A stretch of 64,000 nt of DNA from the NCBI RefSeq assembly GCF_004000435.1, contig NZ_RBVZ01000001.1:971328-1035327 (forward strand), in the 5' to 3' direction. Below are positions 14,270 to 58,654 of the stretch, in pieces (positions within the stretch are counted from its first letter, which is position 1; each line of letters begins with the position of its first letter). The notes below the pieces were generated by a model that worked only from the letters and a program-made list of their open reading frames with translations, was not told the origin of the DNA and ran no database searches. Origin of the DNA: Alexandriicola marinus. GTDB taxonomy: Bacteria; Pseudomonadota; Alphaproteobacteria; Rhodobacterales; Rhodobacteraceae. The translations under genes and the position numbers were made by a program.

Positions 14270-14392
14270 CTAGAGGATCGCGCCGGTCACGGTGGCTGCG
14301 GCGTCGATCGGGGCGGTTATGATCCCGATCGGGGTGCAGCCCGCGATCGCGGCGAAGGCCGCCATCGCGATTATCAGTGTCGTCTTGTTCAT
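14270..14392 (-). CDS. Small (40-residue) lipoprotein, entericidin-like size
   Basis: A short ORF from ATG (14390-14392) to TAG (14270-14272) encodes 40 residues. The first half is a textbook lipoprotein signal: MNKTT, a hydrophobic core LIIAMAAFAAI, then a lipobox IAGC with the cysteine at residue 19. The mature peptide is ~22 residues, rich in isoleucine, alanine and threonine. AGGGCCCTGCC precedes the ATG as a weak ribosome site. The size and pattern recall entericidin-like peptides, but sequence identity to that family cannot be claimed. It lies 18 bases after the end of the minus-strand YejA-like gene and could be co-transcribed with it. Confidence 0.6.
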   Translation of the reverse strand: MNKTTLIIAMAAFAAIAGCTPIGIITAPIDAAATVTGAIL

Positions 14393-14410: not shown

Positions 14411-16231
14411 CTATTCTTCATACCACCACACGTCGGGCTGCCATCCGGGCCAGTCCCCGAACAGCGGGATGTAGTCGGGATAGTGCAGATTGGCCGAATG
14501 CGCCACCCGGCTGATATTCCACTGATAGATCGGGATCACATAGCGGCCGGACATCAACACCCGGTCCAGCGCGCGCGCCGCGGCAAGGAAATCGTCCTGG
14601 CTCTCCGAAGTCAGCAACTTGTCTATCATGCCGTCGACGGCCGGTGAACTCACGCCCATCAGGTTGCGACCGCCCGGTTCGTCGGCGCGTTCGGCCCCGA
14701 AGTAAAGATATTGCTCGTTGCCCGGGCTGAGCGAGAGGCCGACACGGTAATAGGTCATGTCGAAATCGTAGAGGTCGGTGCGTTCCTTGTATTGCGCGCT
14801 GTCGACGGCGCTGACGCTGGGGGTGATCCCGATCCGGGCCAGCGACTGGGTATACATGTCGATGATCGACTGGTTCTCGGAGGCGCCGGTGGTCAGCAGA
14901 ATCTCGAAGGTGAAGGGCTCCCCATCCTCGTTGGCCAGAACGCCGTCCTGAACCGTCCAGCCGGCCTCGGCCAGAAGCTCCAGCGCGGTGGCCGTGCCCT
15001 GACGGTTGCGCTCCGAGCCGTCGCTTTCAGGCAGCGAATAGCCGTCGATCGCCCCGGGCAGAAGCGCGTCCTGATACTCCTGAAGGAATTCGAGGACGCG
15101 GCCCTCCGCCGGTCCATGCTCCATCCCCAAAGGCGAATTCGAGAAATAGGAGGTGATCCGCGGCTGCTGGCTTCCGGTCATCGATTCATTGATGAACTCG
15201 AAGTTGAACGCCTGGATCAGCGCCTCGCGCACGCGCCAATCCTCGAACTGGGGCTTGCGGGTGTTCATGACAAAGCCGGTCATGCCGGACGGCCGGAAGT
15301 GCGGCAGGACCGACAGGACGATCTCGCCGTCCTGAACCATCGGGAAATCATATTGGCTTTCCCAGCGGGCCACGTTGAACTCGCGGTTGGAATTCACGAT
15401 CCCGGTCTTGAACGCCTCGAAAGCCGCGGTCTCGTCGCCGAAGAATTCGAACCGCACCTCGTCAAGATTGCCGACGCCGTTGCGGAACGGGATGACACCG
15501 TTGCCCCAGTAATCGGGATCGCGCACGAGGCTGACGAAACGGCCGGCCTCGAAATCGCCGATCACATATTCGGAAGACACGATCGGGATCATGTCGGTTC
15601 CGTCGGATTCGGCGAAATCGACGCCATCCCACTGGTCCTTCTTCAGGATCGGGCGGAGCCCGGCCAGAAGCGCCAGTTCCCGGTCCTCTTCGTTGAAGGT
15701 GATCCGGACGGAATGCTCGCCGGTCTGCTCCATGCTGGCGATCTTGCTGTAGAGACCGTGATAGCGGGGGTGACCCTCGGTGCCTAGGGTCTCGAACGAC
15801 CAGATCACATCTTCGACCGTGACCGGGCTTCCGTCTGAGAATCGGGCCTCGGGGCGAAGGGTGAATTCGACCCATTCGCGATTCGGTCCGGTCTCGATCG
15901 TTTCGGCCAGAAGGCCGTACAGGGTGAAGGGTTCGTCGAGGGAACGGGCCATCAGCGTGTCGCCGACGATCCAGCGAAGCTGCCACGGAACCGAGCCTTT
16001 GCGGATGTAGGGATTGAGGCTGTCATAGCCCCCGATGAAGGCCGTGGTCATGGAACCGCCGGTCGGCGCATCGGGATTGGCATAGGGGAGATGTTCAAAA
16101 TCTGGGGGGAGGGCAGGGTCCCCATACATAGCTATGCCATGCTGAGGCTCTGCCATGGCAATGCCGGCGAGGGCGCAACAGGCCACGCTTAATGCGACGA
16201 CCCGCTTGCGTGGGAAAAATACTGATCTCAT
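14411..16231 (-). CDS. YejA-like extracellular solute-binding protein (family 5)
   Basis: A 606-residue periplasmic binding protein of family 5 (SBP_bac_5), closest in look to YejA-type peptide/microcin C binding proteins. After MRSVFFPRKRV comes a hydrophobic signal ending AGIAMAEP. The mature part has the typical HGIAMYGDPALPPDFEHLPYANP opening split here across the signal junction, then TLYGLLAETIE, FTLRPEARFSDGSPVTVEDV and, near the C-terminus, WNISRVAHSANLHYPDYIP. The start at 16229-16231 is chosen because AAGGA lies upstream; the ATG at 16262-16264 lacks one. No permease or ATPase genes adjoin it, so it is an orphan component in this window. Confidence 0.88.
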   Translation of the reverse strand: MRSVFFPRKRVVALSVACCALAGIAMAEPQHGIAMYGDPALPPDFEHLPYANPDAPTGGSMTTAFIGGYDSLNPYIRKGSVPWQLRWIVGDTLMARSLDEPFTLYGLLAETIETGPNREWVEFTLRPEARFSDGSPVTVEDVIWSFETLGTEGHPRYHGLYSKIASMEQTGEHSVRITFNEEDRELALLAGLRPILKKDQWDGVDFAESDGTDMIPIVSSEYVIGDFEAGRFVSLVRDPDYWGNGVIPFRNGVGNLDEVRFEFFGDETAAFEAFKTGIVNSNREFNVARWESQYDFPMVQDGEIVLSVLPHFRPSGMTGFVMNTRKPQFEDWRVREALIQAFNFEFINESMTGSQQPRITSYFSNSPLGMEHGPAEGRVLEFLQEYQDALLPGAIDGYSLPESDGSERNRQGTATALELLAEAGWTVQDGVLANEDGEPFTFEILLTTGASENQSIIDMYTQSLARIGITPSVSAVDSAQYKERTDLYDFDMTYYRVGLSLSPGNEQYLYFGAERADEPGGRNLMGVSSPAVDGMIDKLLTSESQDDFLAAARALDRVLMSGRYVIPIYQWNISRVAHSANLHYPDYIPLFGDWPGWQPDVWWYEE

Positions 16232-16310
16232 TTTGACGACAATCCTTCTGCTCCCTGTGTTCATTGAGGGGGAGCGTATCGGGGTCCTTGTGTGTTTTCA
16301 ATTTTTTAGC

Positions 16311-16339
16311 TTGGACGGCGGCGCAGGATTGCTTATAAA
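16311..16339 (+). promoter_or_regulatory. Sigma-70-type promoter of a candidate small RNA
   Basis: TTGGAC at 16311-16316 and TATAAA at 16334-16339 are separated by exactly 17 bases. That matches housekeeping promoter geometry and predicts transcription from about 16346. The nearest plus-strand product it could drive ends at the terminator at 16394-16421, well before bdhA. Confidence 0.6.
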
Positions 16340-16345
16340 GGTGTC

Positions 16346-16421
16346 ACTGCTCGATAGGTTTCTTGCCTGTATGAAACCTGCCTCAATAACTCAACGCCCG
16401 CTTCGTGCGGGCGTTTTTTTT
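16346..16421 (+). ncRNA. Candidate small RNA, about 76 nt
   Basis: Downstream of a good promoter the sequence forms a first hairpin, AGGTTTC (16356-16362) pairing with GAAACCT (16373-16379) around a ten-base loop. A 14-base single-stranded linker follows, then a strong terminator hairpin and a run of eight T. No ribosome site or stable ORF lies inside. Promoter, body hairpin and intrinsic terminator in a 110-base unit with no gene is the classic layout of an Hfq-dependent trans-acting sRNA. I do not recognise a named family. An hfq gene is present in this window, at 58335-58568. Confidence 0.55.
16394..16421 (+). terminator. Intrinsic terminator of the sRNA candidate
   Basis: ACGCCCGC (16394-16401) pairs perfectly with GCGGGCGT (16407-16414) around a five-base loop, followed by T to 16421. 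The T-tract exists only in the plus direction, so it terminates plus-strand transcription; no plus-strand protein gene lies directly upstream. Confidence 0.85.
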
Positions 16422-16553: not shown

Positions 16554-17327
16554 ATGTCACTGAAGGGAAAGACCGCGATCATCACCGGATCGAACTCGGG
16601 AATCGGGCTCGGCGTGGCGCGCGCGCTTGCGGCTGCGGGCGCCGATGTCGTGCTCAACTCCTATACCGATCGCGACGAGGATCATGCCCTCGCCGAAGAG
16701 ATCGCCAAGGCCCATGGCGTGACCGCGCGCTACATAGCGGCGGATCTGTCCAAGGGCGCCGAGGCCCGCCGCCTGATCGAGAAGGCAGGACGCTGCGACA
16801 TCCTCGTGAACAATGCCGGCATCCAGCACGTGGCCCCGATCGACGAATTTCCCGTCGACAAATGGGATGCGATCATCGCGATCAACATGTCGTCGGCGTT
16901 TCACACGACGGCCGTGGCACTGCCGATGATGCGCGAGGCGGGCTGGGGCCGGGTGATCAACATCGCCTCGGCGCACGGGCTGACCGCCTCGCCCTACAAG
17001 AGCGCCTATATCACGGCCAAGCACGGCGTCGTCGGCATGACCAAGACCGTGGCGCTGGAAACCGCACGCGAGAAGATCACCGCCAACGCGATCTGCCCGG
17101 GCTATGTGCTGACTCCGCTGGTCGAGGCGCAGATCCCCGATACCGCCAAGAAGTATGGCATGACCGAGGAAGAGGCCAAGCAGAAGGTCATCCTCGAGCG
17201 TCAGCCGTCCAAGGAATTCGCCACCGTCGAGCAGATCGGTGGCACGGCGGTGTTCCTGTGTTCGGATGCCGCCGACCAGATCACCGGCACCACGATCAGC
17301 GTGGACGGCGGCTGGACGGCGCTCTGA
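16554..17327 (+). CDS. bdhA: 3-Hydroxybutyrate dehydrogenase
   Basis: A 257-residue short-chain dehydrogenase that interconverts D-3-hydroxybutyrate and acetoacetate with NAD. It has TGSNSGIGLG (11-20) for the dinucleotide, NNAG at 86-89, and the catalytic N111, S139, Y152 and K156 (AYITAKHG). The C-terminal SVDGGWTAL and the QHVAPIDEFP segment are characteristic of 3-hydroxybutyrate dehydrogenases. AAAGGAG precedes the ATG. It leads an operon with aconitase X and a patatin; in relatives the bdhA-patatin pair is linked to poly-hydroxybutyrate turnover. Confidence 0.95.
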   Translation: MSLKGKTAIITGSNSGIGLGVARALAAAGADVVLNSYTDRDEDHALAEEIAKAHGVTARYIAADLSKGAEARRLIEKAGRCDILVNNAGIQHVAPIDEFPVDKWDAIIAINMSSAFHTTAVALPMMREAGWGRVINIASAHGLTASPYKSAYITAKHGVVGMTKTVALETAREKITANAICPGYVLTPLVEAQIPDTAKKYGMTEEEAKQKVILERQPSKEFATVEQIGGTAVFLCSDAADQITGTTISVDGGWTAL

Positions 17328-58334: not shown

Positions 58335-58568
58335 TCAGTCCTCGCCGTCGTAAAGGTTGATCGGCTGCGACGGCATGATCGTGGAAATCGCGCTCTTGTA
58401 GACAAGCTGCGACTGGCCATCCCGGCGCAGAAGTACACAGAAACTATCGAACCACGTGATAACGCCTTGCAGCTTGACCCCGTTGATCAGGAAGATCGTG
58501 ACGGGAACCTTTGTCTTTCGGACGTGATTCAGGAATGCGTCCTGCAGATTCTGCTTGTCGGCGGCCAT
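58335..58568 (-). CDS. hfq: RNA chaperone Hfq
   Basis: A 77-residue Hfq. The Sm1 motif covers [20 protein letters not shown] and the Sm2 motif [12 protein letters not shown]; the N-terminal [11 protein letters not shown] is standard. It forms a hexamer that pairs small RNAs with messages and is a candidate partner of the sRNA candidate at 16346-16421. It precedes hflX. A sigma-54-like element and a CATAAT -10 lie 57-86 bases upstream of the ATG. Confidence 0.98.
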
Positions 58569-58624
58569 GACCTGTTTTCCTTGCTCTTGACGGCCTCTGC
58601 GGGGCCTCTCCCTCGTTTGGGCCG

Positions 58625-58654
58625 ATTATGTCGTGCCAGCAACTGACATTCCAG
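58625..58654 (-). promoter_or_regulatory. Possible hfq promoter elements
   Basis: On the minus strand CTGGAATGTCAGTTGCT (58638-58654) has GG and GC ten bases apart with a perfect TTGCT -12 box, as for sigma-54. CATAAT (58625-58630) could be a sigma-70 -10 with a weak -35 (TGGAAT). Only one is likely to be real, and neither is strong. Confidence 0.3.

Follow-up and report, generated by a model that had tools for sequence, protein, structure and literature searches.

Does the short intergenic stretch between a divergently transcribed transporter gene and bdhA in Alexandriicola marinus encode an RNA of its own and, if so, of what kind? The stretch (16311-16421) lies in a window of 64,000 nt, the whole piece of DNA analyzed here, and an earlier sequence-only reading had proposed that it specifies a free-standing non-coding transcript of about 76 nt. 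We conclude that it is probably a free-standing sRNA gene belonging to a Rhodobacterales-wide family, its product most likely acting in trans with the assistance of Hfq. Feature coordinates are collected in Table 1.

Table 1. Positions in the window of the RNA gene, its component elements and the protein genes discussed in the text
Feature	Position	Strand	Basis
Family 5 extracellular solute-binding protein gene (ABC transporter), divergent flank	14411..16264	-	PF00496, 195 bits
18-nt conserved promoter box TCAATTTTTTAGCTTGGA, including the -35 element	16298..16315	+	Most columns 76-97% identical, 66 loci
-35 element TTGGAC	16311..16316	+	CTTGG columns 91-97% conserved
-10 element TATAAA, 17-nt spacer from -35	16334..16339	+	TATA 92-97% conserved, constant distance to RNA start
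Small RNA (inferred), ~76 nt	16346..16421	+	Start from -10 element and onset of conservation (ACTGCTCGATAGG...)
Hairpin 1	16356..16379	+	Pairs unchanged in 62-63 of 63 distinct sequences
Single-stranded linker GCCTCAATAACTC	16380..16392	+	GCCTC invariant, rest A/U-rich
Intrinsic terminator, 9-pair stem, TTCGT loop, T8	16393..16421	+	Two-sided compensatory changes in 7/9 pairs
bdhA, 3-hydroxybutyrate dehydrogenase, downstream flank	16554..17327	+	TIGR01963, 357.9 bits, above cut-off
hfq	58335..58625	-	

The promoter letters that the sequence-only reading had picked out, TTGGAC-N17-TATAAA, are present at 16311-16339 and are conserved in the family. Its seven-pair hairpin was confirmed base for base, with AGGTTTC (16356-16362) pairing with GAAACCT (16373-16379), and an extra T-G pair lies outside these seven. 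The stem closes a 10-nt loop, TTGCCTGTAT (16363-16372), which is a candidate seed. The linker that follows is a second candidate seed and possibly a contact for Hfq beside the terminator; in 11 of 80 copies it is shorter by one nucleotide. The terminator stem (AACGCCCGC-TTCGT-GCGGGCGTT, 16393-16415) has nine pairs and not the eight first counted, whereas the run of eight T (16414-16421) stands as described. No plus-strand protein gene ends at this terminator, as had been claimed: the upstream gene runs in the opposite direction from its start at 16264, and on the plus strand no gene begins before 16554, so the terminator belongs to no protein gene of that strand. The RNA strand (81 nt) folds with a minimum free energy of -26.4 kcal/mol, whereas shuffled sequences average -15.65 (z = -3.84; equaled by 0 of 200 shuffles). 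Loop and linker are unpaired in the predicted fold and are nearly invariant across copies. Anatomy alone is nevertheless weak evidence, because the promoter falls below the cut-off of a consensus promoter scan and is missing from its list, and because terminator-like sites in the region occur at chance level in a scan.

The elements had also been said to have no ORF between them. Some ORFs do cross 16311-16421 mechanically, but none of them is conserved. That the RNA encodes a tiny peptide (MKPASIT, ATGAAACCTGCCTCAATAACTTAA) is very unlikely: MKPASIT followed by a stop codon is found in 42 of 80 copies, but the ATG sits at the edge of the loop without a preceding Shine-Dalgarno sequence, a 1-nt deletion in 11 of the 80 shifts the frame to MKPAS-stop, and in the copy of the window the terminator is reached before any stop codon. 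With the frame not kept and no ribosome-binding site, the peptide was rejected.

Evidence of a different order comes from comparison among genomes. At the DNA level the unit was found once in each of 25 genomes of the family (the window's own included) and was missing from all 16 genomes of other families. A covariance model built for the RNA (R1) and used for genome-wide surveys detected it in 292 of the 298 genera sampled from the family, or 261 of 263 among good assemblies, and in 0 of 285 genomes from the class outside the family. The order Rhodobacterales was sampled with 61 genomes, all of them Rhodobacteraceae, and every one carries the unit, normally as a single copy; the genomes in which it is missing are mostly incomplete assemblies. 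This conservation across the family and order, together with absence elsewhere in the class, puts the unit far beyond chance. As judged from these genome surveys, the RNA family occurs throughout Rhodobacterales and only there.

Two fairly complete genomes (G150 and G172) lack the RNA and have only weak matches to bdhA; in these the entire locus may be absent or unassembled. One genome holds a weak second match (G145:C11:121121-121193, 32 bits) beside a normal copy, possibly a degenerate paralog. Genome G067 is R. sphaeroides, as its reaction-center M chain is identical to a PDB chain from that species; in it the copy lies on the minus strand of chromosome 1 at 1,443,997-1,444,075. The published probe for the sRNA StsR also matches this genome exactly, and the published start coordinate of the sRNA SorY falls on an sRNA-like unit.

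Conservation is concentrated in a 39-nt core, ACTGCTCGATAGGTTTCTTGCCTGTATGAAACCTGCCTC (positions 5-43 of the RNA), every column of which is at least 97.5% identical in 80 aligned copies. The core is nearly constant while the flanks diverge between genera. Conservation of both stems in relatives had been set beforehand as the test of the proposal, and the two stems are conserved in different ways. The pairs of hairpin 1 hardly vary, and for this reason its stem gives no covariation signal in the 80 copies. The terminator stem differs in sequence and keeps its pairing, with 99.3% of cells forming pairs and two-sided changes in 7 of 9 pairs, a count taken from an alignment fitted to the structure; an independent MAFFT alignment gave the same picture (6 of 9 pairs). 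The covariation score of this stem was matched by 0 of 500 shuffles. Comparison of sequences thus establishes a conserved and apparently dedicated promoter, an invariant 5' domain and a covarying terminator. The most diverged copy (L073, genome G045, 1501-1578; 67 bits) has an altered loop and upper stem and retains TGAAACCTGCCTCAA and GCTCGA. Retention of TGAAACCTGCCTCAA and GCTCGA there suggests that the 3' arm plus linker are the functional part.

The genomic neighborhood bears on whether the RNA is a gene in its own right. The solute-binding protein gene adjoins the RNA in 24 of 25 genera. A small predicted lipoprotein (MNKTTLIIAMAAFAAIAGCTPIG..., 14270-14392) adjoins that gene in turn, and a similar small ORF occupies the same place in R. 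sphaeroides. In Paracoccus the RNA is located on the second large replicon (1.5-2.2 Mb). On the other side, bdhA has the same orientation as the RNA and starts 133 nt beyond it; in 17 of 25 genera it follows at short distance. Such proximity is what would be expected of a cis-acting leader, with transcription either attenuated at 16421 or continuing into bdhA, much as UpsM arises from the dcw leader. This explanation is very unlikely. A leader or attenuator requires a constant downstream gene, yet bdhA lies about 3 kb (G020), 6.7 kb (G267) or 1.9 kb (G235) away or on a different contig (G023), and the RNA and its terminator are intact in several genomes where bdhA is 1-7 kb distant or on another contig. 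No alternative antiterminator fold is evident either. Such a pattern does not fit a leader of bdhA, and the RNA is likely to be a separate gene. Its persistence where bdhA is distant, together with the conserved stems and promoter, upholds the free-standing non-coding RNA of about 76 nt first proposed.

The promoter box has the family consensus TCAAACTTTTAGCTTGGA and stands at a single spacing from the RNA start in 55 of 66 copies, and one base off in 8. In a scan of 2.4 Mb of R. sphaeroides chromosome 1 the RNA's own site scored 20.2 and the next best 8.2; in the window the corresponding scores were 16.0 and 6.6. There being no other good match in either, a shared regulon for the box was rejected. 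Its apparent uniqueness suggests that control is probably dedicated to the RNA and not shared with a large regulon. The base after TATAA varies among copies, as it seldom does in a housekeeping -10 element. A TCAAACTTTTAG box (16298-16309), seemingly unique to the RNA locus in R. sphaeroides, lies immediately 5' of the -35 element and implies a putative dedicated regulator site or UP-like element.

How might such an RNA act? The favored explanation is that its own promoter, probably under dedicated control, would give an RNA of about 76 nt comprising a tail, a hairpin with the 10-nt loop UUGCCUGUAU, the linker GCCUCAAU, a terminator and a long U tail. Hfq, encoded in the same genome and, as the sequence-only reading had pointed out, within the window itself, would bind the RNA at its U tail and at the A/U-rich linker. 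Loop and linker, both exposed, would base-pair in trans with mRNAs, for the most part close to ribosome-binding sites, and pairing would reduce the translation or stability of those mRNAs. The near-perfect core would fit a single RNA that several targets engage through identical bases. Expression of the RNA, its binding by Hfq and its mRNA targets are what we infer; two general traits of Hfq-dependent trans-acting sRNAs, an own promoter with an intrinsic terminator and U tail, here conserved across genera, and a conserved single-stranded seed, are seen in the RNA.

The target scan covered 2.4 of the 3.19 Mb of R. sphaeroides chromosome 1. With approximate gene starts and three shuffles as controls, 8-mers able to pair with the loop were most frequent between -30 and -16 relative to start codons (16, against 7.3 in shuffled sequence), and those able to pair with the linker behaved likewise (11 against 3.3). 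These peaks hint that loop and linker pair with ribosome-binding sites. Duplexes of the RNA with both flanking mRNAs have energies like those of shuffled sequence, and both were rejected as targets, scoring no better than the controls. In R. sphaeroides the prrB/regB leader contains, at -26, a perfect 10-nt complement of the whole loop (ATACAGGCAA); the loop complement is absent in 27 other genomes having the gene, and prrB/regB was rejected as a conserved target. No conserved target was thus found among the candidates tested (both flanking mRNAs and prrB/regB).

This result would also fit an RNA that binds a protein, the invariant hairpin and linker forming a recognition site through which the RNA titrates or modulates its partner. 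Hardly any base of the 39-nt 5' domain changes, even in the stem, and compensatory changes are absent. A seed would not require so constrained a core, which makes a protein partner a serious rival to antisense action. We nonetheless consider it unlikely, as the motif occurs once per RNA, in contrast to the repeated sites of typical titrating RNAs, and its size, its U tail and its unpaired stretches rich in C and U are in keeping with an antisense sRNA.

For the most part, bacterial sRNAs change rapidly in evolution and are found in a few genera each. The RNA described here is kept in essentially all members of the order, including the Roseobacter group, Rhodobacter and Paracoccus, with a nearly unchanged core. 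Retention on this scale points to strong selection and implies a basic function. It is tempting to speculate, though we think it on balance rather unlikely, that a universal RNA, its 39-nt domain all but frozen and its promoter unique, is an unrecognized core regulator of the order, its invariance arising from a fixed RNA-protein or RNA-RNA partner in all members, unlike an ordinary fast-evolving antisense sRNA. With covariance model R1 and the precise location of the gene in R. sphaeroides, a species amenable to genetics, the function of the RNA can be tested directly.

No Rfam family reached its gathering score when the window and 20 relatives were searched, in line with the earlier statement that no known sRNA family was recognized. 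Of 30 hits to the core sequence in open papers, the 20 listed were all unrelated, and no RSs13xx name for the R. sphaeroides RNA was found in the open literature. Relative to Rfam and the open literature examined, the RNA is a new, order-wide family of orphan sRNAs, and its absence from Rfam leaves it unannotated in genomes. It is quite possible, at somewhat less than an even chance, that the RNA is already listed provisionally in RNA-seq tables, as P. denitrificans Intergenic 134 or under an R. sphaeroides RSs number; only the conservation and family status would then be new, and the preferred explanation would be unaffected. Intergenic 134 is a putative sRNA of 84 nt, conserved in Rhodobacteraceae and with the same gene context reported in R. 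sphaeroides (PMC5107571). Besides length and context, its number suggests chromosome 2, and the RNA resides on the second replicons of Paracoccus, so that the two are likely to share a replicon type. Intergenic 134 is, however, reported to match Streptomyces and Chloroflexus; the RNA should not, and such matches outside the alphaproteobacteria do not fit it. If the two are the same, GATAGGTTTCTTGCCTGTATGAAACCTGCC is the sequence expected in PD1222 chromosome 2 at 759993-760077.

Several known RNAs invite comparison. The CcsR (cuckoo) RNAs have CUCCUCCC anti-Shine-Dalgarno loops, and the CUCCUCCC motif is missing from the aligned copies of the RNA. Among Rfam families, SorX (RF02784) comes closest to the R. 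sphaeroides copy, though weakly, at 22.5 bits, mostly from the terminator, against a gathering score of 46.6. For SorY (RF02651) the copy scores 15.3 bits against 111. Both matches were rejected. These two R. sphaeroides stress sRNAs resemble the RNA in length, 5' structure, C/U-rich linker, TTCG-type terminator and long U tail; SorX, however, is made from a 3' UTR, whereas the RNA has its own promoter, and SorY differs in sequence and lies elsewhere (1,632,642). MmgR/suhB (RF00519) was likewise rejected, scoring 21.8 bits in the window and 20.5 in R. sphaeroides against a threshold of 41, with none at threshold in 20 relatives. MmgR, an alphaproteobacterial RNA, is like the present one in measuring about 77 nt, in having two hairpins joined by a linker and in its U tail, and is tied to PHB granules in Sinorhizobium, the RNA adjoining the PHB-pathway gene bdhA. 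The unpaired UUUcCUCCCU between the hairpins of the MmgR/suhB model is nevertheless absent, other bases standing there, and the first hairpin of MmgR is a small one of 4 pairs, whereas the RNA has a different, 8-pair one.

UpsM of R. sphaeroides is a non-coding RNA that ends at an intrinsic terminator and is conserved in Rhodobacteraceae (PMC5089854). It is a 206-nt product of the dcw cluster 5' leader, whereas the RNA is not tied to a downstream gene. StsR (RSs0827), a 72-nt Hfq-associated orphan sRNA of R. sphaeroides with its own promoter and terminator (PMC8307010), was the first guess by length. Its probe target CCGTTCTACCTTCACTGTCC maps to 858,073 on chromosome 1, about 586 kb from the RNA, and the guess was dropped; from its position at 1,443,997-1,444,075 the RNA is neither StsR nor SorY. 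StsR has no evident sequence similarity to the RNA, but the two are alike in kind, each an orphan sRNA with its own promoter and terminator in the same bacterial family.
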